This document shows positions 44,760 to 63,651 of a stretch of 64,000 bases of DNA, piece by piece. The position numbers and the translations under genes were made by a program. The DNA is taken from positions 62,001-126,000 of the forward strand of contig JAUIHW010000007.1 of assembly GCA_030431775.1 (NCBI GenBank). Direction: 5' to 3'. The notes beneath the pieces are model-generated. The model had not been told where the DNA came from. It saw only the letters and a list, made by a program, of their open reading frames with translations, and searched no databases. The DNA is from Gammaproteobacteria bacterium. GTDB lineage: Bacteria > Pseudomonadota > Gammaproteobacteria > Pseudomonadales > JAUIET01. Within the stretch, counting starts at the first letter, position 1; every line of letters starts with the position of its first letter.

Positions 44760-46064
44760 ATGAATGTGGTCATGATTGGTGCAGGCTATGTCGGCCTGGT
44801 CTCCGGGTGTTGTTTTTCTGAATTTGGCGCCAACGTATGTTGCGTTGATGTGAACGAAGAACGGGTGGCAAGCCTTGGGCGTGGTGAGATTCCAATTTAC
44901 GAGCCCGGGTTGGATGCGCTCGTGGCAAAAAACGTTGAAGCAGGGCGCTTGCGGTTCACGACGGCCATCGAGTCAGCAATACCGGACGCCGACATTATTT
45001 TTATTGCCGTGGGCACGCCAACCCGCCGTGGTGATGGTCACGCAGACCTGTCTTATGTTTATGAAGCGGCCCGCAATATTGCGCCTCTGCTCAAAGACTA
45101 CACGGTGATTGTTAATAAATCGACTGTACCCGTTGGCACGGCTCGGCAAGTGAAGAGAATTATTGCAGAAACCAACCCGCAGGCTGAATTTGATGTCGCA
45201 TCCAACCCAGAATTCCTGCGCGAAGGCGCAGCGATTGCCGACTTTATGCGGCCTGACCGAGTGGTGCTGGGCGTGGAATCTGAACGCGCGGAAAAGCTGC
45301 TGCGAGAATTGTACCGCCCGATTAACCTGATTGAGGCGCCAATTCTGTGTACAGGTCTGGAAAGTGCCGAGCTGACCAAGTATGCGGCCAATGCCTTTCT
45401 GGCAACCAAAATCAGTTTTATTAATGAAATTTCCGCCCTGTGTGAAAGCGTCGGTGCCGACGTACATGCGGTCGCCAAGGGCATGGGGCTGGATGGCCGC
45501 ATTGGTCGCAAATTCTTGCACCCGGGCCCGGGTTATGGAGGCTCCTGTTTCCCGAAAGATACCACCGCCCTGATCCGCATTGCCCAGGAGAATGATATTT
45601 CCCTGCGCATTGTTGAAGCCGTGATTGATGTCAACGACGCGCAAAAGGCGCGCATGGTCAACAAGATCAAGACCATGTTTAATAACGACCTTGCCGGAAA
45701 AACCATCGCGGTGTTTGGTTTGACCTTTAAACCGGAAACCGATGATATGCGCGAGTCGCCATCAATTGCGATTCTCCCGCCCTTGATGGATAAAGGGGTT
45801 AAAGTTCGGGCTCATGACCCCAAGGGCATTGAACAGGCCCGCAGTCTGCTGCCTGAGACAGTGGAATATTTCGATGATGCCTATGAGGCCGCGAAAGGGG
45901 CGGACGCAATCGTACTGATGACCGAGTGGAACCAGTATCGTTCCTTGGATCTGCCACGTTTGCTCAATGATATGAAAGACAATTACTTTATTGATCTGCG
46001 TAATGTCTATGAGCCGAAACGCATGGTCGACAAGGGCTTCCGTTACACCTCAGTGGGCCGCTAA
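44760..46064 (+). CDS. ugd: UDP-glucose 6-dehydrogenase
   Basis: Oxidises UDP-glucose to UDP-glucuronate for capsule, exopolysaccharide or lipid A modification. The 434 residues have the N-terminal NAD-binding MIGAGYVGLVSGCCFSEFG, IYEPGLD, VGTPTRRGDGHADLSYV, STVPVGTARQ and the catalytic Cys263 in GPGYGGSCFPKDT. The C-terminal UDP-binding domain begins near GKTIAVFGLTFKPETDDMRESPS. No glycosyltransferase or capsule genes flank it, so the end product is unclear. It overlaps the convergent nucleotidyltransferase gene by 15 nt. Confidence 0.95.
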   Translation: MNVVMIGAGYVGLVSGCCFSEFGANVCCVDVNEERVASLGRGEIPIYEPGLDALVAKNVEAGRLRFTTAIESAIPDADIIFIAVGTPTRRGDGHADLSYVYEAARNIAPLLKDYTVIVNKSTVPVGTARQVKRIIAETNPQAEFDVASNPEFLREGAAIADFMRPDRVVLGVESERAEKLLRELYRPINLIEAPILCTGLESAELTKYAANAFLATKISFINEISALCESVGADVHAVAKGMGLDGRIGRKFLHPGPGYGGSCFPKDTTALIRIAQENDISLRIVEAVIDVNDAQKARMVNKIKTMFNNDLAGKTIAVFGLTFKPETDDMRESPSIAILPPLMDKGVKVRAHDPKGIEQARSLLPETVEYFDDAYEAAKGADAIVLMTEWNQYRSLDLPRLLNDMKDNYFIDLRNVYEPKRMVDKGFRYTSVGR

Positions 46065-46628
46065 ATCGGCTGGAATATCAATGTCCCGAACAATGGCGGG
46101 GTCATCCAGCGCAAGCTGCGTAACGCTATTGGCCCGCTCAGCCAATAAGCTTTTAGCCCCGCTATCACCCTGTAAACGCTGCAGTTCCGGGATAAATTCC
46201 CGACTGAATAGCCTGGGATGCCCGGCTTGACCAAGATAGCTCGGAACCACAATTCCTCCGCTCTCTGCCGACTCCAAAATACGCTCCACACTGGCCGATT
46301 GAATGTACGGCATGTCGGCCAAGGCGATCAGCACAAATGGCGCTGTGCTGGCCGCAACACCGCTTGCAATGGAGTGACCCATGCCCAGGGGGCTGAGAGC
46401 GGACTCAATAATCTGCAGGTTTGGGTCCCGATTGCGAAACAGTTCAGTTTCTCCGCGGCCAACCACTAGAATGACTGGCAAATCACAAGCCCGGTAAACC
46501 TGAAGAGACCGCTCCCAAACCCTGCCGCCACCCGCCAAAGTGGCGAACCGCTTGTCGGCTGGGCCGAAGCGCTGGCTGCGACCCGCCGCTAACAGGACAA
46601 CCTGCGCCTTTGCTGCGGTATTGGGCAT
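46050..46628 (-). CDS. MobA/MocA-like nucleotidyltransferase
   Basis: A 192-residue NTP-transferase-domain protein. LLAAGRSQRFGPADKRFATL is the nucleotide-binding signature, and LIALADMPYIQS holds the metal-binding aspartate; GHPRLFSREFIPELQRLQGDSGAKSLL is typical of the MocA/MobA group that adds CMP or GMP to molybdopterin. The alternative is another sugar or cofactor nucleotidyltransferase. A molybdenum-cofactor role fits the modABC genes 7 kb away, but no other moa/mob/xdh genes are in the window. It overlaps ugd by 15 nt at the 3' end. Confidence 0.75.
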   Translation of the reverse strand: MPNTAAKAQVVLLAAGRSQRFGPADKRFATLAGGGRVWERSLQVYRACDLPVILVVGRGETELFRNRDPNLQIIESALSPLGMGHSIASGVAASTAPFVLIALADMPYIQSASVERILESAESGGIVVPSYLGQAGHPRLFSREFIPELQRLQGDSGAKSLLAERANSVTQLALDDPAIVRDIDIPADLAAH

Positions 46629-46801: not shown

Positions 46802-48907
46802 CTAAAACTGCAAGCGAAGACCCAACTCAACGGTTCTTCCAGGCCGTGGAGCAAACTCTTTCACCAGTGAGGTATGGTTGCGCTGTTCCTCGTCGCCGAG
46901 GTTACGGCCCTGCAGAAACAACTCCACATCAGTATCGTAGGCGCTGAAGCTGTAGCCAAGATATGCGCGCAAATCGTTGTAGCTGCTGGTCGCCAACTCA
47001 AGCTCGGAGGTATCCGTTTGTGAATCCACATACAGATAGTCCAGGTCAAAAATAACAGGACCCTGCTCATAGGAAACCCCGAAGCCAAACCGCATGGGCG
47101 GCAGTAATGGAACATTATCGTTCCCAGGTACATCCTGCAGGTCGGCCGTAATCCAGTCATAGCGGCCGTTAAACCACAGAGCACCGCCTTCCCATTCAAC
47201 AGCGAGCAATCGAGCGCTAAAGTCGAGTCCTGTGTACACGGCATCCTCTTGTGTAAACACAGCAACTGGCAGCTCGTCTTCCTCAGCACCTGTCCCTTGC
47301 TGATAAATATAATCCTCGAAACGATTATGGTACAAGGTGGCTTCCAATCTGGCTCGTTGAGTACGGTAAGTGAGGGTTGCAGCAAAATTAATTGCCTGCT
47401 CTTCGTCCAGAGTTTCGTCACCAACTTCAAAGCGCTGGGTAGCTAGGTGTGCGCCGTTTGAATATAACTCTTCGCCAGTGGGTGCCCGGGTTGAAAAACC
47501 GCTGTGCAATGCCAGCGAAAATCGTTCTCCAAACGGCAGCAAAACGCCGGCTGAAACGGAGAACACATCGAAATCTCGATCCGCAGAGGCAGCATCGGAC
47601 GGTTGGTAATCAACGCGCTCAATGCGGGCACCCAGCTCGACTGTGCCAGTATTTGCCAGAGACCTTTCACCGACCCAGAACAGGCCAATACTGTCGCTAT
47701 CCACCGGTTGCAAGAAAGCTTCTTCACCAAGCGCCTCGAATTCACGTCCGGTCACCTGCACGCCGAGTGCACCGCGCCATTCACCCCAGGGTTCGTGAAC
47801 AAGTTCACCTCGAAACTCGAAGGCTTTGTTAGCAAAATCGGTTGCAACCTCTCCGTTAGGCTCTATTTCCTGGTGCTCGTAATCGTTATAACCCAGGCGT
47901 AAATTCATCGAGGCGAAGCCGGCAAACGGGTTTTCAAGTCCAAACTCCAGGTCAATGCGGGTTTGCTCAACATCCAGCACAGGTTGACCTTCTTCCTCTT
48001 CATGCTCGTGTTCTTCTTCGCCTTCCTCTTCTTCATCATGCTCTTCTTCATGACCATGACCGTGCCCACCGGGTAAACCATATTCGGAGCTTAAATGACT
48101 GATAGCGAGGCCGTAGAAGCCGGAATCAGTGACATAGCTGGTACCAAATGCGAAACCGCTGGATTCAAGCTGGCTGCCTGGCAAAGTGTCCCGAACCTCC
48201 TCTTCTTCCTCGTGATGCTCGTCGCCTTCCTCTTCCTCATCATGCTCCTCTTCTTCCAGCTCTTCGAGTGCGCGCAGTCGGCTGGACTCGGCAAAGCCAG
48301 GAATATCATAGGGATCGGCGTCGCGACCTATGGCGTCCAAATGAAACGCCCAGGAACCCGTGCCACCGCTCAGCTGAACAGCCCCTTGGCGTTGATCTGC
48401 GTTATCTGCGGCTCGCAGTTCCACCTTACCATTCAGTGCTTCCGGTACCGCATGCGGTATGCGTCCTGTGTGCACATCAACCACTCCACCAATGGCGCCA
48501 GAGCCGTACAAAAGAGTGCTGGGTCCTTTCAATATTTCAATGCGCTCGGCCAGGAAGGACTCTACCGTTACCGCATGATCAGCGCTGTTCACCGAGACAT
48601 CCATCGTGCCAATGCGGTCTTCCAAAACTCTGACTCGCGGACCGCCAAGCCCATGAATTACTGGACGTCCCACTGCAGTGCCATAGGAGGCATTGTGGAC
48701 CCCTGGAATGCGCTCTGTCGTTTCGGCGATGTTGTTGCCGAGCGCCCGATGCAGTGCCTCCTTTTCCAGTACCGCAGCGGGCTGGGTGATGCCCTCTGAG
48801 GACAGTGGGTGGCCTAAAACAATGATTTCTTCCAATACTTGAGGGGCTTCCTGTGCGCCAATGGCGACACTCCACGCCAGAGGCGCGATAACAAATACAG
48901 TACGCAT
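46802..48907 (-). CDS. TonB-dependent receptor, ZnuD-like, with His/Glu-rich loops
   Basis: A 701-residue outer-membrane receptor. It has a signal peptide (to about GAQEA), a plug domain with EEIIVLGHPL (TonB-box region), RPVIHGLGGPRVRVLEDRIGTMDVS and ERIEILKGPSTLLYGSGAIGGVVDV, and a barrel ending in LGLRLQF. This plug sequence is the ZnuD type, implicated in zinc uptake. Two long low-complexity segments occur where surface loops are expected: about residues 212-239 (Glu/His/Asp) and about 281-307 (GHGHGH, then Glu/His). Such loops bind zinc in known ZnuD proteins. It lies 81 nt downstream of a small exported protein gene on the same strand. Confidence 0.88.
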   Translation of the reverse strand: MRTVFVIAPLAWSVAIGAQEAPQVLEEIIVLGHPLSSEGITQPAAVLEKEALHRALGNNIAETTERIPGVHNASYGTAVGRPVIHGLGGPRVRVLEDRIGTMDVSVNSADHAVTVESFLAERIEILKGPSTLLYGSGAIGGVVDVHTGRIPHAVPEALNGKVELRAADNADQRQGAVQLSGGTGSWAFHLDAIGRDADPYDIPGFAESSRLRALEELEEEEHDEEEEGDEHHEEEEEVRDTLPGSQLESSGFAFGTSYVTDSGFYGLAISHLSSEYGLPGGHGHGHEEEHDEEEEGEEEHEHEEEEGQPVLDVEQTRIDLEFGLENPFAGFASMNLRLGYNDYEHQEIEPNGEVATDFANKAFEFRGELVHEPWGEWRGALGVQVTGREFEALGEEAFLQPVDSDSIGLFWVGERSLANTGTVELGARIERVDYQPSDAASADRDFDVFSVSAGVLLPFGERFSLALHSGFSTRAPTGEELYSNGAHLATQRFEVGDETLDEEQAINFAATLTYRTQRARLEATLYHNRFEDYIYQQGTGAEEDELPVAVFTQEDAVYTGLDFSARLLAVEWEGGALWFNGRYDWITADLQDVPGNDNVPLLPPMRFGFGVSYEQGPVIFDLDYLYVDSQTDTSELELATSSYNDLRAYLGYSFSAYDTDVELFLQGRNLGDEEQRNHTSLVKEFAPRPGRTVELGLRLQF

Positions 48908-53609: not shown

Positions 53610-54728
53610 TCAGCGCACTAACGCAGCCGATTTGATCTGTGCCCACACGCGCTTTCCTGGGTGCAGAGAAAGCTGATTGACAGAGCGCCTGGTGAGCCTG
53701 GCAATGAAATATTCCCGGCCGGCTTTCAGGCGCACCAGAGTAACGGCCGACTGTTGATTGTTTGTGGCGATCTCATCCACTACTGCCGCGACCCGATTCA
53801 GAATGCTACTGTCCTGCTGTAGTGACAATGTCAGACTAACATCACGAGCCAGGATTCGCAGACGGACTGTACTGCCCAAGGGCTCGTCATTGTCCTGGGT
53901 CCACAGTTCACCGCCATCAAAACCGACCCGAATGAGCCGCCAGTCTTGCTCGCGCTCAATGACGGTTGCCTGCACAATGACACCGGGTTCATCACCAGGC
54001 AGCAACGGCAGGTCGAGACGGGAGAATATGTTGGCTGGCAGACCTTCATCAACTACCCGACCCTTATCAAGCAGAATGACATGGTCGGCCAGACGAGCTA
54101 TTTCTTCAACCGAGTGACTGACATAGATAATCGGCGTGTTGTAACTGGCGTGTAATTCCTCAAGATAGGGGAGAATGTCGCGCTTGCGCTCATTGTCCAG
54201 TGAGGCGAGTGGTTCATCCATTAACAGAACTTCCGGATTGACCATAATAGCCCGTGCAATTGCAACGCGCTGTCGCTCACCACCGGATAACTCGTGTGGA
54301 TATCGATGTAAAAAAGGTGTGATATCGAGCAAGGATGCAATCCGCTGTTGTTGCGCAGGATCCGGCTGCCCGGAAGCTCTTTTACGTGCAAAATCGAGAT
54401 TGCGCTGCACGCTAAGGTGTTCAAATAGGCTGGCTTCCTGAAAGACATAGCCGATAGGGCGCTGATGAGTGGGCAGTTGATAATGCTGGTCCTGCCAAAT
54501 CTTGCCTTTGACAATAAGCTTTCCTGGCTGAGCCTGTTCCAGACCCGCGATACAGCGAAGCAGGCTGGTCTTGCCTGAACCGGAAGGCCCGAACACGCCG
54601 GTAATTCCTTTGCCCGGTATGGTCAGATCCACATCGAGCTGAAACGCAGAACCGTAATCCAATTGCAGCCTGGCTTGAATGGGAGCTTGCCCGCGATCGT
54701 TCAATGTATTGCTCAACGACTCGGCCAT
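53610..54728 (-). CDS. modC: Molybdate ABC transporter ATP-binding protein
   Basis: A 372-residue ABC ATPase: Walker A GPSGSGKTS, Q-loop FQEAS, signature LSGGERQRVAIARA, Walker B VLLMDEPLASLD, switch His in IYVSHSVEE. A C-terminal regulatory extension follows with molybdate/tungstate-binding (TOBE/Mop-like) sequence (about 295-365, with VVDEIATNNQQSAVTLVRLKAG and ARLTRRSVNQLSLHPGKRVWAQIKSAALV). It overlaps modB by 16 nt, and its 3' end is 11 nt from the convergent SDR gene. Confidence 0.95.
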   Translation of the reverse strand: MAESLSNTLNDRGQAPIQARLQLDYGSAFQLDVDLTIPGKGITGVFGPSGSGKTSLLRCIAGLEQAQPGKLIVKGKIWQDQHYQLPTHQRPIGYVFQEASLFEHLSVQRNLDFARKRASGQPDPAQQQRIASLLDITPFLHRYPHELSGGERQRVAIARAIMVNPEVLLMDEPLASLDNERKRDILPYLEELHASYNTPIIYVSHSVEEIARLADHVILLDKGRVVDEGLPANIFSRLDLPLLPGDEPGVIVQATVIEREQDWRLIRVGFDGGELWTQDNDEPLGSTVRLRILARDVSLTLSLQQDSSILNRVAAVVDEIATNNQQSAVTLVRLKAGREYFIARLTRRSVNQLSLHPGKRVWAQIKSAALVR

Positions 54729-55405
54729 AGACTGGCAGTTGACCGGCTTTGAACAGAGTACAGACCGAGCAGTATCAGAAAGGAGAAAACCAACATAATC
54801 GCAGCCAGGGAATGCGCGTTGGCATATTGCAAAGCTTCAACATGGTCATAAATTTCAACCGAAACCACCCGCGTTTCGCCGGGAATACTGCCGCCAATCA
54901 TCAACACCACACCGAATTCTCCAATGGTGTGAGCAAAGCCTAGCACGGCAGCTGTCACATAACCGCCACGGCTCAAAGGCAGAACCACGGTAATGAAGCG
55001 GTCCAGCGGGCCAGCGCGTAAGGTTGCGGCAACTTCAAGCGGGCGTTTCCCCAATGCAAGAAATGCATTCTGTAGCGGTTGAACTACAAAAGGCATGGAA
55101 TAGAGCAGGGAAGCAATCACCAGGCCGGTAAATGTGAAGGGCAGGGTTCCCAGCCCCAACCAAGTGGTAATTTCCCCGATAAAGCCCTGCGGACCCATGG
55201 CGACCAGCAGATAAAACCCCAGCACGGTGGGTGGCAATACCAGCGGCAGCGCGACCACGGCATTGACCGTTCCGCGCCAGCTTGATCGAGTGGTTGCTAA
55301 CCACCAGGCCAGCGGCGTGCAGAGTACCAGCAGTATTACGGTGACTGTTCCAGCCAGTTTCAGGCTCAGTACTATCGCTGCGAGATCGGTATCTGATAAG
55401 GTCAT
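54713..55405 (-). CDS. modB: Molybdate ABC transporter permease
   Basis: A 230-residue inner-membrane permease with five to six hydrophobic helices. The EAA-type cytoplasmic loop that contacts ModC is EVAATLRAGPLDRFITVVLPLSRGG, and PLVLPPTVLGFYLLVAMG is characteristic of ModB. It overlaps modA by 4 nt and modC by 16 nt, forming a compact modABC operon. Confidence 0.95.
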   Translation of the reverse strand: MTLSDTDLAAIVLSLKLAGTVTVILLVLCTPLAWWLATTRSSWRGTVNAVVALPLVLPPTVLGFYLLVAMGPQGFIGEITTWLGLGTLPFTFTGLVIASLLYSMPFVVQPLQNAFLALGKRPLEVAATLRAGPLDRFITVVLPLSRGGYVTAAVLGFAHTIGEFGVVLMIGGSIPGETRVVSVEIYDHVEALQYANAHSLAAIMLVFSFLILLGLYSVQSRSTASLWPSR

Positions 55406-56211
55406 TGTTGCTGTATGCCGCTGTGGCTGGGTGCGCGGTAACCATGAGCCTCCATAATACGGGCCGCACGCTCACTGCGCACAAAGGTGAGAAACTCCCT
55501 GGCGGCATCGGAGTCTGCCGCATGGGCCAGCAACACGGCGTCCTGACGGATAGTGCGATGTAGCGTTGCAGGAACCCGCCATATACTTTGGGCCGCAACG
55601 GACTCCAGGGGGGTCAACTGCGACAGGGCCACAAATCCAAGATCAGCATTGCCGCTTGCAACAAACTGAAAGGTTTGGGCAATATTCTCACCCAGGACCC
55701 GCTTCGAGCGGGTCTGCTCGAGCAAGCCCAGGTTTTGCAGGACATCATCAGCTGCTGTGCCATACGGTGCGAACCGCGGGTTGGCAAGTGCCAGGCGCTG
55801 AAACTCACCGGTTAACAGCAGTTCTTTTACCGAAGTGCCGGCTGGTTTGCTGCCTGACCAGAGCAGCAGGGCACCCAGTGCATAGGTAAACCGGGTGCCA
55901 GACTGCGCCAGACCCCGCTGTTCCAGAGCCAGCGGTTTTTCCTGGTCGGCGGAGAAAAACAGGTCGAAGGGAGCGCCATGGACGATTTGTGCGTACAGTT
56001 TGCCGGAAGAACCCAGACTTACCGTCAGTGTGTAAGCGCTGTCCTCTGAAAACTGCTCTGCCAGCACTTTCATAGGCCGAGCAAAGTTTGCAGCCACAGC
56101 CACCCGGATATCCGCAGCCTGTGCCAGCAGGCTGGTCGGCAACAGGATGACAGTAAGCAGAAAACACGCGCGTTTTAACACAGCAGATCTCGATGACTCA
56201 GCAAAACACAT
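55402..56211 (-). CDS. modA: Molybdate ABC transporter substrate-binding protein
   Basis: A 269-residue periplasmic binding protein with a signal peptide (about 14-32, ending LLAQA). The mature part begins ADIRVAVAANFARPMKVLAEQF, followed by LTVSLGSSGKLYAQIVHGAPFDLFFSAD, the serine-containing oxyanion-binding loop, and NPRFAPYGTAADDVL, NADLGFVALSQL. The ATG at 56211 is chosen because it places the signal sequence correctly; longer in-frame starts run into the divergent TonB receptor. It is the first gene of modABC and lies 159 nt from that divergent receptor. Confidence 0.93.
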   Translation of the reverse strand: MCFAESSRSAVLKRACFLLTVILLPTSLLAQAADIRVAVAANFARPMKVLAEQFSEDSAYTLTVSLGSSGKLYAQIVHGAPFDLFFSADQEKPLALEQRGLAQSGTRFTYALGALLLWSGSKPAGTSVKELLLTGEFQRLALANPRFAPYGTAADDVLQNLGLLEQTRSKRVLGENIAQTFQFVASGNADLGFVALSQLTPLESVAAQSIWRVPATLHRTIRQDAVLLAHAADSDAAREFLTFVRSERAARIMEAHGYRAPSHSGIQQQ

Positions 56212-56291
56212 AGTGTCTCGTAAGCTGTTTATTGTGGCAACAAATGTTGGACCGCTGCGTTGAGTTTGTGAGCACCGACATGGTACTGCAC

Positions 56292-56308
56292 TGCGACAAT
56301 ATGTCGCA
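56292..56308. promoter_or_regulatory. Palindromic operator candidate in modA/TonB-receptor gap
   Basis: TGCGACA-ATA-TGTCGCA has 7-bp perfect inverted arms. It is 81 bp from the modA start and 63 bp from the receptor start, close to a candidate -10 for the receptor (TAAAAT, 56331-56336). It does not match the E. coli ModE consensus I know. A shared regulator of both transcripts is an inference. Confidence 0.5.
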
Positions 56309-56370
56309 TTCCATCCACTGACGCATTCTTTAAAATTGAGAGCTTTAGCTGTAATTGATGGGGAAATTCT

Positions 56371-58440
56371 ATGCGATGGATGGCAGCAATCTTGACACCG
56401 CTGATAACGCTCTGTGCACACGCTGAGCATGACCACAGCAGTGTTGAGGAAGTACTGGTGCATGGCATGCGCCCGATCGGACTACAACCCCTGCAGCTGG
56501 CCGATACTCTGCAAGCCGCGGCTGACAGCGCTGAACTTTTGAAGAAAGCACCTGGCGCCAATGTTAATCGCAATGGTCCGCTAACCGGCATCGCACAGTA
56601 CCGCGGACTATTTGGTGACCGGATCAGTGTGCGTCTGGACGGCGCACCGGTGTTGACCGGTGGGCCGAATGCCATGGATGCACCCTTATCCTATGCCTCC
56701 CCAGGTTTACTGAAAGGGTTGACCGTTCACCGCGGTTTAGCCCCGGTTGATGTGGCGCAGGAAAGCCTTGGCGGGCATATTGAAGCCAGCCTGAACCGCG
56801 GTGATTTTCAACGCGAAGAGCAGGGCGTATTGCGCGGTTTTGTCGATTCGGGCTACACCGCTAATGGTGACCGTCTGGCCAGCAACCTGCAACTCGTGGC
56901 GGCAAATGAGCAACACAAAGTGGCATTGGTTGCGGCGCATGAAGAGGGTAATGATGTCGAGGCCGGAAATGATGTGAAGCTTGCGGGAACCCATTACCAG
57001 CGTGACCGTTTCGATCTGAGCTACGCCTGGCACAGTGGTCCCAGCAACGGCGAACTGTTTGTGGGCCGCCTGGACACTCGAGACAGCGGTACCCCGGCAT
57101 TACCCATGGACATCCAGTTCATAGAAACCGACATGGCTGGGATTCGACTTGGCCACGAACTGGAAGGTCTGCGACTGACCGCCCGGCTCAACTGGGCGGA
57201 TGTAGAACATGTCATGGATAATTTCAGCTTTCGCCAGGCGCCAGCCAGTATGATGCGTTTCCGCTCTACGCTTGCGACAGGCGATTCCGTGAACTGGGCC
57301 GTGCAGGCCAGGTGGTCCAAATTGCCCGGACAGCTTACGCTTGGCCATGATGGTCGCTATGAAGGCCACAGTGCGACCATCAGCAACCCTAACAGTGCAG
57401 CATTTGAAATCCTTAATTTCAACAATGCGCAGCGCAGGGGCCTGGGCCTTTTTCTCAACTGGCAAGGTGATATTGCCGATTGGCAGTTACAAAGCGGAGT
57501 GCGCTGGAACCATATTGCCTTGACCAGCGATCCCGTCGCAGCCAGTGGCATGATGGGTATGATGGGCGAGCTCGCAGGCGGCATTGCCCAGCGTTTTAAT
57601 TCCAACGATTTGGACCGCGATTACAGTACGTTTGATGTGGTTATCAAGGCGGTAAGGGCGCTCAACGAGCAGCTGACGCTGCAGTTTGATCTGGGGCAAA
57701 AAAATCGTGCGCCTTCTTATCAGGAACGCTATCTCTGGTTGCCGATGCCGGCAACCGCTGGCCTCGCTGATGGGCGCAGTTATTTGGGCAACCTGTCGCT
57801 CAGTGCGGAAACCGCCCGCGAGATCAATCTTGGCCTGAGCTGGAGCGGAGACAATTTTAGTTTTGAACCGCAGCTTTTTTACCGCCGAATTGACGATTAC
57901 ATCCAGGGCGTGCCCGCCAGTGAAGCGGCGGCCAATCAGCTAAGCCAAATGATGAGTGGTAATAGCGCGTTGCTGTTCGATAACGTCGATGCAGAAATGT
58001 TTGGTGTTGATGCAGCGGCGAATTATCGAATCAATGAGAGTTGGGCGCTCAGCAGCGTGTGGAGTTATGTGCGCGGCAAGCGACGCGATGGAAGTGACAA
58101 CCTGTATCGCATTGCCCCGCCCAATCTTCGCCTGGCATTGCATTATGAGTTCACGCGCGGTGGTGCAATGCTGGAGACGGTGCTGGTTTCCCGACAAAGC
58201 AAGGTGTCTGAATTTAACCAGGAGCAGGAAAGTCCGGGTTATGGGCTACTGAACCTCGCCGCAAACTGGGCACCCACACCGCACTGGGAGCTGCGTGCCG
58301 GAGTGCGTAACTTGCTTGACAAACAGTATGCTGACCACCTGGCTGCCTATAATCGCAACGGTTTCAGTGACATCGCAACCGGCGAACGGCTCGCAGGCCT
58401 CGGCCGCGAAGGCTATGTAGCGGTGCAATATCAGTGGTAA
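56371..58440 (+). CDS. TonB-dependent receptor (metal or oxyanion uptake candidate)
   Basis: A 689-residue outer-membrane receptor. The signal peptide is MRWMAAILTPLITLCAHA, followed by EHDHSSVEEVLVHG (TonB-box region), a plug with QYRGLFGDRISVRLDGAPVLTGGPNAMDAPLSY and GLAPVDVAQESLGGHIEASL, and a barrel ending in EGYVAVQYQW. The MDAPLSY region and YADHLAAYNRNGF near the end recall copper receptors of the OprC/NosA type, and Met-rich stretches occur (ASGMMGMMGELAGG near 394-402, QMMSGNS). Its position, divergent from modABC across one operator-like palindrome, also allows a molybdenum-complex substrate. The substrate is undecided. The ATG follows GGGGAAATTCT. Confidence 0.85.
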   Translation: MRWMAAILTPLITLCAHAEHDHSSVEEVLVHGMRPIGLQPLQLADTLQAAADSAELLKKAPGANVNRNGPLTGIAQYRGLFGDRISVRLDGAPVLTGGPNAMDAPLSYASPGLLKGLTVHRGLAPVDVAQESLGGHIEASLNRGDFQREEQGVLRGFVDSGYTANGDRLASNLQLVAANEQHKVALVAAHEEGNDVEAGNDVKLAGTHYQRDRFDLSYAWHSGPSNGELFVGRLDTRDSGTPALPMDIQFIETDMAGIRLGHELEGLRLTARLNWADVEHVMDNFSFRQAPASMMRFRSTLATGDSVNWAVQARWSKLPGQLTLGHDGRYEGHSATISNPNSAAFEILNFNNAQRRGLGLFLNWQGDIADWQLQSGVRWNHIALTSDPVAASGMMGMMGELAGGIAQRFNSNDLDRDYSTFDVVIKAVRALNEQLTLQFDLGQKNRAPSYQERYLWLPMPATAGLADGRSYLGNLSLSAETAREINLGLSWSGDNFSFEPQLFYRRIDDYIQGVPASEAAANQLSQMMSGNSALLFDNVDAEMFGVDAAANYRINESWALSSVWSYVRGKRRDGSDNLYRIAPPNLRLALHYEFTRGGAMLETVLVSRQSKVSEFNQEQESPGYGLLNLAANWAPTPHWELRAGVRNLLDKQYADHLAAYNRNGFSDIATGERLAGLGREGYVAVQYQW

Positions 58441-58482: not shown

Positions 58483-59757
58483 ATGCACAGCATGGCTCAA
58501 TATGGTACCGCTCCACATGGCGGCTTTTCGGCTGAAAGGGAAAACCTGTATCGTCTGATTCTGATCAGAATCCTGGTACTTTGTGGGCAGGGCGTTGCCT
58601 TGTTCTATTTCACCAAGGTCCAGCCTTTGGGTTTGCCATTGGCTGCACTGTTGCTGGTATTGCTGATTTACGCGCTGTTGACCCTGCTAACCTGGGCGCG
58701 CATTCATTTTAGCGCTCAAATTACCAGCCTTGAGTTCTTTGCGCACCTCCTGGTTGATATAGTATTTTTTTCAACAATCCTGTACCTGAGCGGCGGCGCG
58801 TCCAATCCATTTATTTCTTACTACCTCATTCCTATTAGTATCGCCGCCATCGCATTGCCAAGGCTCCTGAGTGCGGCCACTACCGTTTGTTCTTTGCTGG
58901 CGTATACCTTGCTGTTGAAATTCTTTGTGCCCATCCCTGAGCTGGCACCAGCGCATCATGGCAGCGAAATTGGCCTGCATGTTCTCGGAATGTGGGTAAA
59001 CTTCGCGCTCAGCGCGGCCATAATCACCTATTTTGTCAGCCAGATGGCCGCCACGGTTCGCCGCCAACAGCGCGAACTGGCGTTACAACACGAAGACCAG
59101 CTGCGGAACGAACAATTGCTGGCAATTGGCACGCTGGCCGCTGGTACGGCGCACGAACTGGGGACACCATTGAACACAATGAAACTGGTGGTTGATGATC
59201 TGAGCAGCGGTGAACGCTTGGAGAAAACCGACCTGGATACGCTACAGCACCAGTTGGATCATTGTCGCGAAACCTTGCAGCAGTTGGTGGAAACTGCCCG
59301 TCAAAGTAATGAACGCAACCATTCGGAGCAGAACGTGCGGGTTTACTTTGAGCAATTGATTGAACGCTGGCGGCTGCTGCGCCCGGAGGTGCAGGCGACT
59401 GTTCGCCTGGGCACGACATTGCAGGATGCTCACGCCAGTTTTCATCCCACGATTGCACAGTCACTTATGAACCTCCTGAACAATGCCGGCGATGCCGCCC
59501 GCGACTGTGTGAGCATAGACATCGATAGCAGTACCACGGAAGTACAGATGTTGATCCGCGATGATGGGCCCGGTTTGGACCCAGCCTTGAGCGATGCCAT
59601 TGGCACACCATTTACCAGCGGTAAGTCGAATGGCCTTGGCCTGGGGCTGTTTCTGTCGCAAACCACGCTGAGCCGCTACGGCGGCACGGTTCGCCTGCAA
59701 AACGCCGCAGGCGGCGGCACCCTCACCACAGTATGCCTGCCCTTATGCGATACCTGA
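58483..59757 (+). CDS. regB: Redox-sensing histidine kinase, RegB/PrrB/RoxS family
   Basis: A 424-residue inner-membrane kinase. Six hydrophobic segments (about 24-188) are followed by the quinone-responsive GGASNPF box at 104-110, the H-box LAAGTAHELGTPLNTM with His224, and the redox cysteine Cys261 in HQLDHCRETL, equivalent in position to the RegB redox Cys. N and G boxes SLMNLLNNAGDAARD and DDGPGLDPAL, GKSNGLGLGLFLSQ complete it. RegB lowers phosphorylation of RegA under oxidising conditions. It begins 42 nt after the TonB receptor and overlaps regA by 25 nt. No sco/senC gene is beside it. Confidence 0.9.
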   Translation: MHSMAQYGTAPHGGFSAERENLYRLILIRILVLCGQGVALFYFTKVQPLGLPLAALLLVLLIYALLTLLTWARIHFSAQITSLEFFAHLLVDIVFFSTILYLSGGASNPFISYYLIPISIAAIALPRLLSAATTVCSLLAYTLLLKFFVPIPELAPAHHGSEIGLHVLGMWVNFALSAAIITYFVSQMAATVRRQQRELALQHEDQLRNEQLLAIGTLAAGTAHELGTPLNTMKLVVDDLSSGERLEKTDLDTLQHQLDHCRETLQQLVETARQSNERNHSEQNVRVYFEQLIERWRLLRPEVQATVRLGTTLQDAHASFHPTIAQSLMNLLNNAGDAARDCVSIDIDSSTTEVQMLIRDDGPGLDPALSDAIGTPFTSGKSNGLGLGLFLSQTTLSRYGGTVRLQNAAGGGTLTTVCLPLCDT

Positions 59758-60269
59758 TAATCGATGACGACAGCGTCTTTGCGGCAACCTTGGCCAGGGC
59801 GTTCGAACGCAGAGGCCACGACGCAGCCACTGCGGAAAACTTAAGTGAAGCGCTGCACTGGCTTGCAGAGTTTCAGCCAGATCGCATCGTGCTCGACCTA
59901 AAGCTGGGTTCTGAATCAGGACTGTCGGTGCTCAGAAAGCTGCTCGATCAGAAGCAGGACGCCCAGATTCTGATGCTGACCGCGTATTCCAGTATACCGA
60001 CTGCGGTGGAAGCCATTAAATTGGGCGCGCGCAATTACTTGTGTAAACCGGCTTCGGCTCAAGAAATTATAGCGGCCTTCGATAATCGCACACCTGATGA
60101 GGCAATACCGTTGCAAAAACAGCCCACCAGCGTTAATCGGGTGGAATGGGAACACATACAGCGCGTGCTACAACAGCACGACGGCAATGTGTCGGCAACG
60201 GCCAGGGCGCTTGGTATGCATCGACGCACTTTGCAACGCAAGCTTCAGAAACGGCCGGTAAAGCATTGA
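59733..60269 (+). CDS. regA: Response regulator, RegA/PrrA/RoxR family
   Basis: A 178-residue response regulator. The receiver has acidic pocket LIIDDDSV, phosphoacceptor Asp55 in RIVLDLKLGSESG, Thr in MLTAYSS and Lys in YLCKPAS. The C-terminal Fis-type helix-turn-helix VEWEHIQRVLQQHDGNVSATARALGMHRRTLQRKL is nearly the signature of RegA/ActR/PrrA. It overlaps regB; an ATG at 59745, four codons in, is also possible. RegA family members control respiration, carbon and nitrogen metabolism. It is the last gene before the transposon. Confidence 0.92.
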   Translation: MPALMRYLIIDDDSVFAATLARAFERRGHDAATAENLSEALHWLAEFQPDRIVLDLKLGSESGLSVLRKLLDQKQDAQILMLTAYSSIPTAVEAIKLGARNYLCKPASAQEIIAAFDNRTPDEAIPLQKQPTSVNRVEWEHIQRVLQQHDGNVSATARALGMHRRTLQRKLQKRPVKH

Positions 60270-60361: not shown

Positions 60362-60402
60362 GGGGTCCACTAACATTCCATCCGGATTTTGACGGCGGGA
60401 GC
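60362..60402 (+). repeat. Left 41-bp terminal inverted repeat of the Tn3-family element
   Basis: Begins GGGGTCCACTAACATT and ends GACGGCGGGAGC. It matches the reverse complement of 63611-63651 at 37 of 41 positions; the inner 24 bp are identical. Confidence 0.92.
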
Positions 60403-60470
60403 GGTCGAAAAACTCTTTTAAAATCAACGATCTAAAATGGGCGCTATTAGGTTTGCCAATAATATCAATG

Positions 60471-60491
60471 CGCCAATACACTTTCTTAAAG
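60471..60491 (+). repeat. Left subterminal 21-bp inverted repeat
   Basis: Starts CGCCAATACACTTTC. It is the exact reverse complement of 63522-63542. It lies 68 nt inside the left terminal repeat, the same distance as on the right side. Confidence 0.9.
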
Positions 60492-60581
60492 TCATTTCGA
60501 GATGGTGCTCTTTTCTGCCTCTCCGCGCCGAAAGGGCCATAATGCTTCGTCCCACAGGACAAACGGTGACGGAGGCTCGCA

Positions 60582-63500
60582 ATGGTTCCACACTGGCAAA
60601 CCCCCTACCTCGGCATACGCACCCTCCCCCGCCTGACCGGCTGGGAGATTGATCACTTCTTCACGCTGGAGATCGAGGAGCGAGACGAAATCCGCTCCCG
60701 TTTTCGCGGCATCAATCGGCTCGGCGTTGCCTTGCAGCTCTGTTTCCTTCGCTTGACGGGCTGTCCACTTGATGGCGTACGAATTTTGCCGAGCGAACTA
60801 CTTTCCCATGTGGGCAGGCAACTCGACATCGAAATTCCTACTATCGCTTCCGTGCGGGCGCTCTACCGGCGAAAACGCACACGGTACGATCATCAGCAAT
60901 GGGCCATGGCCAGGCTGGGATTCTCACCATTGACGGCTGGCCGACGGCGCGTGCTCATTACCCGATTAAAACAACAGGCGCGATCCACCGGTGAAGTTGA
61001 TGCCCTTATCGAATATGCCCGCCGCTGGCTCTTCGACCAGCGCATCATCATCCCAAGCAAGCGTAGTCTCAAGGAGCTCTCGGCGCGTATTCTGGTTGAA
61101 GCGGAATATGCGCTGTATCAGGAAGCCCTCGAGGTTATTCCGGAACCCGTATGCGCGAAATGGCTGGATGCATTGTATGAGGTGAACTCCAAATATGATA
61201 TCCAGTTGATCGACTGGTTGAAGACACCACCTGGCAAACGGTCAAAGAGCAACCTGAATGAGCTGTTCGATAAAATCGAGGCACTGCAGGCATTGGAGGT
61301 CCACTGTCACACTCTCCCCTTCCCGCTGGAACGGCAGCGATTCTATGCCTCCCGGATGCGCCGACGGTTTCCGCAACGTTTCAGGTCGATTTCTCCGGCC
61401 AGACGGACACTTGAGTTGACCTGCTTTCTCCGTGTGACATTGATGGATCTGGTGGACGTTGCCATCTTGCAAGTGGAAAAACGTATCAGCGAGCTGTGGT
61501 CTGGGGCCAGGCAGGTGGCCGAACGCAGGCAATATGAGAAATCGCAAGGTCACCGGGCAACATTGGACGACATTCATCGCACCCTGCATGATCCGGAACT
61601 GAGTGATCGCCAGGCTCGGCGTGCGGCCTGTGACCTGATCGACCCACTGGTGGAACACAAACCACTGCCGCGAGCGGCACTGACCCGGGAAGCGCTATCA
61701 GAAGAGCCCAATATACGGCCGTTGTTGCGCCGTCTACTTACACTCGACTTTGAGGCGGACCCCGATCATCCCAGCTGGCGTGCCTTGAACGCGTTGCGCG
61801 ACCTTTATGAGAAGGGTGAGAAAGAACTGCCAGAGGCACTGGACATTCCGATCCCTGGTCGCTGGGAATCGTTGGTGCAGGATCCGGAGAATCGGCAGCG
61901 CGCACTTCGAGCATTTGAGGCTGCCACCCTGCACGGCCTTCGCCGCGGCCTGAAGAATTGTGCCATCTCCGTCGATTACAGCTTTGGGTATCGCGGCCGC
62001 GATTCCATGCTAATGCCATTAGACGAATGGCAGAAGAATCGCGGTAAGTACTACAGGGCCCTCGGCCTCCCGCAATCGCCGACAAAATTCCTCGAAGAAC
62101 TGAAGGCCCAGGTGCAAACTGGGTTGAACGCGTTGGATCAGGCGATTCAGGAACAAGAGATAGAGATTGTCGATGATGGCATCTATGTCCCGAAGATCGT
62201 TCGTGAATCCCGTCCACCCGGTACTCGTAAAACCGCCAGAGCCTGGATTAATGAAATCGGACCGATTCAATTCCCCAATCTCCTGCTGGAGTTGGACAGC
62301 CACACACGGTTCAGTTGGCAGCTATTGGGAGGTCCGCCAACAAGCGAACGCAACCTGCTTGCATTGTATGGCGCCCTGATCGCCCAGGGCAGCGAATTGA
62401 GTGCTGCACGGGTAGCCCTGATGATGCCCGGTATTCCGATCAAAGATATCCAGCAAGCCATGCAATTACTGGAGGAAGAAGGAGTCCTTCAGAAAGCCAA
62501 TGGCGTGGTACTGGAGTTCCTTCGTCGACATGACATCGTGAATCACTGGGGGAATGGATCCTTTGCTTCCTCAGACATGATTGCCCTCGAAGTATCCCGC
62601 CACCTGTGGCAGGCACGACAAGACCCACGACGGCGAACCCCTTCTGTGGGCAGTTACGTCCATGTGCTGGACCAATGGGGCATCAGCTACGATCAGCCGA
62701 TCGTGCTAAATGAGCGGGAAGCCGGCCCAGCCATCGAGGGCGCGATTCGTTCACCCGGTTCCAAAATCGAAGCGGTGGCCGTGGACACCAAGGGCCATAC
62801 GCATTTTGCTTCGGGGCTGTCGAAGGTGCTCGGGCTGGATCTCTATCCGCGCCTGCGGAAATTGAAGTACCAAAAACTGTTCGTTCCGCGGGGTGTCGAT
62901 GTCCCCAAATCCCTCAAGCCCATCATAGGCCCAACTGTTTCTCTGAAAGCCATCGAGCGGGACTGGGATGAATTTGTCAGGCTGGCCGCCTCCATCCAAT
63001 TTGGTTGGTGTTCTGCGACGATGGCCCTTCGCCGTTATGGATCCGCCGCCCAGGGTGAACCCCTGCATGGTGCCGGCGTCGCGCTGGGCAAATTGGCTTT
63101 GACCGGCTACTTGTGTGATTACCTGGCCAACCCAGAGTTCCGCCGCGAAGTCCTTCGCATCCTCAGTCACGGTGAATCCGTACACACTTTACAGCGAGCC
63201 ATTCATCATGGACGTCCTGTACCCAAGCGTGGTCGGCGACCGGAAGAACTGGCCGCCACCTCCGGTGCCCTGGCACTGCTCACCAATATCACGATGGCCT
63301 GGAACACGCACCATATGGATCGCGTACACAAGGAGTGGCAACGCAAAGAGCCTGAAAGAATCGGTACGGACATGATCAAGCACATTACGCCCGTGCGCTT
63401 CGAGCACATCAATTTCCGCGGGGTGTTTGCTTTTCACGTCGGGCCCTACCGGGACCGACTCTTCAGCACACCGCGTAAGGGCAAGCACCAGGCGGCCTGA
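60582..63500 (+). CDS. tnpA: Tn3-family transposase TnpA
   Basis: A 972-residue DDE transposase that catalyses replicative transposition. The N-terminal DNA-binding part (WEIDHFFTLEIEERDEIRSRFRGINRLGVALQL) is the DUF4158-type domain of the family. The C-terminal catalytic part includes AVAVDTKGHTHFASGLSKVLGLDLYPRLRKLK with the expected aspartate region, HGESVHTLQRAIHHG and NTHHMDRV near the final acidic residue. It appears full length and intact. The ATG follows GGAGG by 6 nt. It is the only gene in the element. Confidence 0.94.
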   Translation: MVPHWQTPYLGIRTLPRLTGWEIDHFFTLEIEERDEIRSRFRGINRLGVALQLCFLRLTGCPLDGVRILPSELLSHVGRQLDIEIPTIASVRALYRRKRTRYDHQQWAMARLGFSPLTAGRRRVLITRLKQQARSTGEVDALIEYARRWLFDQRIIIPSKRSLKELSARILVEAEYALYQEALEVIPEPVCAKWLDALYEVNSKYDIQLIDWLKTPPGKRSKSNLNELFDKIEALQALEVHCHTLPFPLERQRFYASRMRRRFPQRFRSISPARRTLELTCFLRVTLMDLVDVAILQVEKRISELWSGARQVAERRQYEKSQGHRATLDDIHRTLHDPELSDRQARRAACDLIDPLVEHKPLPRAALTREALSEEPNIRPLLRRLLTLDFEADPDHPSWRALNALRDLYEKGEKELPEALDIPIPGRWESLVQDPENRQRALRAFEAATLHGLRRGLKNCAISVDYSFGYRGRDSMLMPLDEWQKNRGKYYRALGLPQSPTKFLEELKAQVQTGLNALDQAIQEQEIEIVDDGIYVPKIVRESRPPGTRKTARAWINEIGPIQFPNLLLELDSHTRFSWQLLGGPPTSERNLLALYGALIAQGSELSAARVALMMPGIPIKDIQQAMQLLEEEGVLQKANGVVLEFLRRHDIVNHWGNGSFASSDMIALEVSRHLWQARQDPRRRTPSVGSYVHVLDQWGISYDQPIVLNEREAGPAIEGAIRSPGSKIEAVAVDTKGHTHFASGLSKVLGLDLYPRLRKLKYQKLFVPRGVDVPKSLKPIIGPTVSLKAIERDWDEFVRLAASIQFGWCSATMALRRYGSAAQGEPLHGAGVALGKLALTGYLCDYLANPEFRREVLRILSHGESVHTLQRAIHHGRPVPKRGRRPEELAATSGALALLTNITMAWNTHHMDRVHKEWQRKEPERIGTDMIKHITPVRFEHINFRGVFAFHVGPYRDRLFSTPRKGKHQAA

Positions 63501-63521
63501 AACGGGCTATTCGAGAAACAG

Positions 63522-63542
63522 CTTTAAGAAAGTGTATTGGCG
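63522..63542 (-). repeat. Right subterminal 21-bp inverted repeat
   Basis: Perfect inverted partner of 60471-60491, between the tnpA stop and the right terminal repeat, 68 nt from the latter. Confidence 0.9.
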
Positions 63543-63610
63543 GGCTGATTATAAAGGAGATTCAATCTAGCTGGATTGTAACCGACTGATATTACAGAGG
63601 ATTTCTGACA

Positions 63611-63651
63611 GCTCCCGCCGTCAAAATCCGGATGAAATGCTGGTGTACCCC
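63611..63651 (-). repeat. Right 41-bp terminal inverted repeat of the Tn3-family element
   Basis: Reads GCTCCCGCCGTC inward-out to GTGTACCCC. Four mismatches against the left repeat, all in the outer 17 bp. It directly abuts an IS66-family tnpB remnant. Confidence 0.92.

Follow-up and report, generated by a model that had tools for sequence, protein, structure and literature searches.

A probable Cu(I)-type copper receptor gene joined to regB and regA behind a predicted RegA operator

A TonB-dependent receptor gene lies back to back with modABC in a 64,000-nucleotide stretch of gammaproteobacterial DNA (the window, that is, the whole stretch which we have analyzed), and an inverted repeat is found between them. 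Which substrate does this receptor carry, and which system controls it? The initial annotation placed the receptor and modA on opposite strands, 159 nt apart. Our coordinates agree: The gap covers positions 56212-56370, and the modA ATG is at 56211 on the minus strand. The identity of the molybdate genes was also correct, ModA, ModB, and ModC all exceeding their NCBIfam cut-offs. The receptor gene is directly followed, in the same orientation, by two genes which the annotation did not include, regB and regA (Table 1). Their presence changes the reading of the locus. From its sequence, we consider it likely that the locus is an operon which encodes RegBA together with a copper receptor of the Cu(I) type, and that a RegA operator controls it.

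Table 1. Features of the receptor locus, in window coordinates.
Feature	Position	Strand	Details
OprC-like TonB-dependent receptor, 689 aa	56371..58440	+	copper-site motif G98-x3-M102 + H280-x-M282
regB, RegB/PrrB/ActS-type redox sensor histidine kinase	58483..59757	+	NF033792, 223 bits; 42 nt past receptor stop
regA, RegA/PrrA/ActR-type response regulator	59733..60269	+	NF033791, 178 bits; 25-nt overlap with regB
Palindrome TGCGACA-ATA-TGTCGCA, predicted RegA operator	56292..56308		62 nt 5' of receptor ATG
modA, periplasmic molybdate-binding protein	55402..56211	-	TIGR01256, 197 bits, above cut-off
modB permease, neighbour	54713..55405	-	TIGR02141, 233 bits, above cut-off
modC ATPase, neighbour	53610..54728	-	TIGR02142, 409 bits, above cut-off

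A scan for sigma-70 promoters found none in the 159-nt gap. About 90 nt past the regA stop there is a Tn3-family transposase (PF01526, 972 aa; window 60362-63651), and the inverted ends of the Tn3 element (60362-60426 and 63587-63651) are 80% complementary. The window also contains a second TonB-dependent receptor (46802-48907, minus strand), followed by a MobA-like NTP transferase (46050-46628, minus strand, PF12804).

The locus has been compared with 195 related genomes, 21 orthologous receptor loci, and 80 named loci of relatives. A narrower alignment served as the pattern for relatives, the broad alignment being without a usable stretch; a single-protein scan of the genome contigs found no relatives. 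Of the 80 named loci, 28 have regBA next to the receptor, and almost all of the closest relatives (Porticoccaceae/SAR92 group, SAR92-like HTCC2207) are among them, although these and the other co-occurrence counts take in related, non-independent genomes, so their certainty is overstated. Cultured relatives with this operon include HTCC2207 and Aestuariicella albida. In other families, more distantly related OprC-like receptors also have regBA adjacent or close by. In a genome of the same genus, regBA is divergent from the receptor, with a single palindrome between them. In two others (G049 and G006), both of them RegA-positive, regBA comes first in the regBA-receptor cluster, and an exact palindrome is found 5' of regB. 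The Woeseiaceae loci have neither a receptor-adjacent regBA nor the palindrome. The conserved unit is receptor-regB-regA.

The place of modABC is a different matter. A TonB-dependent importer of molybdate or a molybdophore, placed under common control with modABC by the shared palindrome, would explain the divergent adjacency and the common intergenic palindrome, and modABC is also found about 1 kb from a distant receptor (locus L053, 24% identity). The initial annotation had proposed such a TonB-energised molybdenum route, which finds no support in the relatives: The receptor-modABC pair is present neither in the orthologous loci (0 of 21) nor in the named ones (0 of 80), and the palindrome appears in only 1 of the 29 modA promoters of relatives with up to 2 mismatches, which is equal to background. 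Even in the genome of the same genus, about 25 kb of a single contig separates modA from the receptor. No molybdate unit with conserved linkage or a shared site is found, and we reject molybdenum co-regulation from the gene order and the modA promoters. Moreover, the invariant Met/His site and the OprC fold of the receptor suit a soft metal, not an oxyanion. We regard a molybdenum importer as highly improbable, and modABC is judged to be an accidental neighbour outside the conserved unit. In the host genome, the shared palindrome may affect modABC as a local accident of gene order. Inspection by eye recognised no ModE site in the 159-nt gap.

RegB contains the quinone-site motif GGASNPF, the H-box HELGTPL, and Cys261, which we take to correspond to the redox Cys of R. 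capsulatus. The family features (GGxxNPF, the H-box His, and the redox Cys) are all present, and G104, G105, N108, H224, and C261 do not vary across 51 RegBs. RegA has the domains of its family, a PF00072 receiver and a PF02954 Fis-type HTH. Its best PDB match is 3rqi, with a near-identical HTH, which also matches that of PrrA (1umq). A genome search found no other full-length RegA-type gene in the host, whose genome encodes cbb3- and aa3-type haem-copper oxidases. Both proteins fall below the curated NCBIfam cut-offs (223 against 350 bits for RegB, 178 against 250 bits for RegA), so we have labelled them RegBA-type. The RegA cut-off is passed by 0 of the 195 genomes and may be tuned to other lineages.

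The initial annotation described the palindrome as a strong, operator-like inverted repeat. It is indeed a perfect 7+7 repeat with a 3-nt spacer. Taken alone it is not strong: When the window was shuffled 100 times, 3 of the shuffles yielded an equal number of hits at up to 3 mismatches. It is through conservation that chance is exceeded, and its operator-like character is strongly supported by its presence upstream of the receptors of relatives. Of 60 OprC-like receptor genes, 41 have it in their upstream DNA when up to 2 mismatches over 12 positions are allowed; in 460-bp windows taken at random from these loci, it is found in 170 of 2400 cases (7%). All 27 named loci with an adjacent regBA and readable upstream DNA have it. 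The flanks outside the 12 scored positions are also conserved, with a T before in 58 of 63 cases and an A after in 62 of 63. The presence of the site follows that of RegA: It is found upstream of the receptor, at the same threshold, in 39 of 52 cases in genomes with a full-length RegA and in 2 of 8 in genomes without it. The two exceptions, G032 (a draft of 390 contigs) and G124, retain a weaker site, yet RegA was undetected.

The palindrome agrees with the consensus of RegA/PrrA/RegR binding sites, with one mismatch to each of the boxes quoted in PMC5506826. It matches 14 of the 15 positions of the RegR box GNGRCRTTNNGNCGC, and the mismatch to the PrrA box, YSCGGC(5)GWCRMA, is among the specified positions. 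Random 159-nt stretches of the window match as well in 0.6% (RegR box) and 2% (PrrA box) of cases. On this sequence evidence, the palindrome is most likely the DNA switch of RegB/RegA, and RegA would be expected to occupy sites with the predicted operator pattern TGCGACANNNTGTCRCA. In the host genome the palindrome of Table 1 is the one intergenic exact copy. Host sites with at most 1 mismatch are not commoner than those of the control (19 against 22), and no RegA box was found 5' of the host ccoN and coxB.

Exact palindromes are abundant in the 195 genomes: 65 sites, against 3 for a reversed-pattern control. Targets were assigned when a gene start lies within 450 bp. The most frequent are regB (17), a Met-rich outer-membrane protein (13), and OprC-like receptors (12), followed by two other groups of TonB receptors (7 and 3). 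Smaller numbers correspond to nosR, coxB (aa3 oxidase), ccoN (cbb3 oxidase), and MbnP, with 2 each, and to nosZ and copC, with 1 each; 13 of the 65 sites have no recognised target class. Since the oxidases, nosR, nosZ, copC, MbnP, and the Met-rich protein are among them, the predicted targets share a theme of copper and respiration. Such targets are consistent with a RegA-type protein: In Bradyrhizobium, nos and copCAB are under the control of RegR, which binds to the promoter of nosR (PMC4064962), and RegA regulates nos in R. capsulatus (PMC5359404).

The Met-rich outer-membrane protein forms a family with the motif SHAPIGVMGDHTHxxGEWMFSYRYM and a weak PF13557 match. Its 13 loci with an exact palindrome, often divergent from regB, include L308:2547-3575, L283:1454-2527, and L304:2600-3652, with 10 more. 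It is probably copper-related. The two further TonB receptor groups behind the palindrome (L285, L287, L291, L307, L269, and L296 in one, L302, L305, and L262 in the other) are candidates for other copper or copper-chelate receptors.

Could the palindrome belong to another, copper-responsive regulator, RegBA being a co-regulated target which travels with the receptor? Among the recognised targets of the exact palindrome, nearly all have a connection with copper, and many genomes have the palindrome 5' of a receptor which is not beside regBA, as this explanation would predict. We nevertheless find it unlikely: The site matches both the RegR box and the PrrA box, including their 5-nt spacing, regB itself has it upstream in 17 cases, it is mostly missing from genomes which have no full-length RegA, and a search of the conserved neighbourhoods found no candidate copper regulator.

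A second doubt concerns the substrate. The closest relative of the receptor, as judged from sequence, predicted fold, and metal site, is the copper importer OprC. OprC is its best PDB match by sequence (phmmer E 1e-25; profile E 4e-61) and by fold (Foldseek E 2e-41). The AlphaFold2 model of the receptor (mean pLDDT 88) superimposes on OprC with a VIA Z of 40.5 and an rmsd of 2.1 over 606 residues, the next family being ZnuD (Z 35.8). Both the OprC-type fold and full-length similarity are therefore present in the model and the alignment. The score against TIGR01778 TonB-copper, 200 bits (E 6.2e-59), is below the curated cut-off of 472 bits. The copper ligands of OprC are Cys143, Met147, His323, and Met325 (PMC8610252), which align to Gly98, Met102, His280, and Met282 of the receptor. 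The CxxxM-HxM site of OprC thus becomes GxxxM-HxM; M102, H280, and M282 are kept in 52 of 52 relatives and G98 in 51. Because of this Gly at the Cys position, we have classified the receptor by its sequence as OprC-like, not as OprC. In OprC, the C143A mutation abolishes Cu(II) binding and retains that of Ag(I), which is read as Cu(I) (PMC8610252). Since the Cu(II)-binding Cys is replaced by Gly, a reasonable guess, by analogy with this mutant, is that the substrate is Cu(I) or a Cu(I) complex.

The missing Cys ligand and the score below the TonB-copper cut-off might also be expected of a redox-regulated receptor which is not an OprC-type ionic importer and takes chelated copper, another metal, or a haem ligand; in fact, copper TonB-dependent transporters can take chelates, as described for CrtA of B. 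pertussis (PMC12914433). We rate this as quite unlikely, in view of the clear preference for OprC by sequence and fold and of the three invariant Met and His residues. The copper alternative, which the initial annotation had raised against its own molybdenum proposal, is backed by the sequence and the fold, by the conserved site of Met and His residues, and by the other targets of the palindrome. The receptor is most likely, to judge from these comparisons, a copper importer made together with RegB/RegA.

Conserved copper genes were not found around other receptor orthologues; only ExbB/ExbD/TonB-type operons were, in four loci. In these (L046, L048, L050, and L051) the orthologue is followed by a coiled-coil protein of about 260 aa and by ExbB/ExbD/TonB/TPR-like genes, and in L050 it is preceded by ABC-transporter genes. 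Some of these orthologues carry a Cys at the place of the OprC Cys (TCANSMD).

A copper receptor joined to RegBA suggests the following mechanism. The receptor, regB, and regA would form one operon. RegB would sense the redox state of the quinone pool or of the respiratory chain and phosphorylate RegA, and RegA~P would bind the palindrome 5' of the receptor and activate the operon, and with it, by autoregulation, its own gene. The receptor would use TonB energy to move copper, most probably as Cu(I) or in a complex of it, across the outer membrane, and the imported copper would supply haem-copper oxidases. In P. aeruginosa, RoxSR is active in the absence of haem-copper oxidases (PMC5436846), which fits such a loop: Failing oxidases call for copper. 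The bacterium may in this way tie copper uptake to the state of respiration. A wider proposal, which we offer tentatively and consider rather doubtful, is that RegBA of these Pseudomonadales is a controller of copper supply without a metal sensor. Under copper shortage, unmetallated terminal oxidases (and N2O reductase) would lead to a reduced quinone pool, and RegB would turn on RegA. By way of a single palindromic operator, RegA would then raise copper enzymes together with the receptors for copper and its handling in the periplasm.

Little is known of how Gram-negative bacteria determine when copper should be taken up through the outer membrane. Sites of the RegA type are difficult to predict, and A. 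ferrooxidans yielded no usable motif (PMC5506826). A clean palindrome with consistent copper and respiratory targets makes it possible to test directly whether copper uptake is set by a redox system, as opposed to a metal sensor. Our analysis also names a Cys-less OprC-like subfamily, which may be built for Cu(I). A limited literature search found no paper which links OprC, or a TonB copper receptor, to RegBA or RoxSR, which is no proof of novelty.

Several known systems may be compared with this locus. The ModABC transporter is complete and next door, and unlike the conserved unit it lacks, in relatives, both the adjacency and the palindrome at modA. OprC of Pseudomonas aeruginosa and NosA of P. 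stutzeri share with the receptor the fold, full-length similarity, the Met and His ligands, and Met-rich loops. The receptor differs in its low identity to them (21-24%), in the Gly at the place of the Cu(II)-essential Cys143 (51 of 52), in its score below the TIGR01778 cut-off, and in its linkage to regBA. CrtA of Bordetella pertussis and PA0434 of P. aeruginosa are copper TonB-dependent transporters which serve haem-copper oxidases (PMC12914433). The proposed task is the same, copper for respiratory oxidases, whereas these proteins cluster apart from OprC in the network of the authors, who describe copper control by CruR and do not mention RegBA (PMC12914433). A further parallel is found in the family formed by RegB/RegA, PrrB/PrrA, ActS/ActR, RegS/RegR, and RoxS/RoxR, which have in common GGxxNPF, the HELGTPL H-box, the invariant Cys, and the RegA HTH. 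The box GCGAC-N5-GTCGC is also shared, as are targets which include cbb3 oxidase, nos, and copC. Unlike those systems, the one described here shares its operon with a probable copper receptor of the outer membrane, and its predicted site is a near-perfect palindrome, often the sole exact copy in the genome, while RegA sites elsewhere are degenerate.
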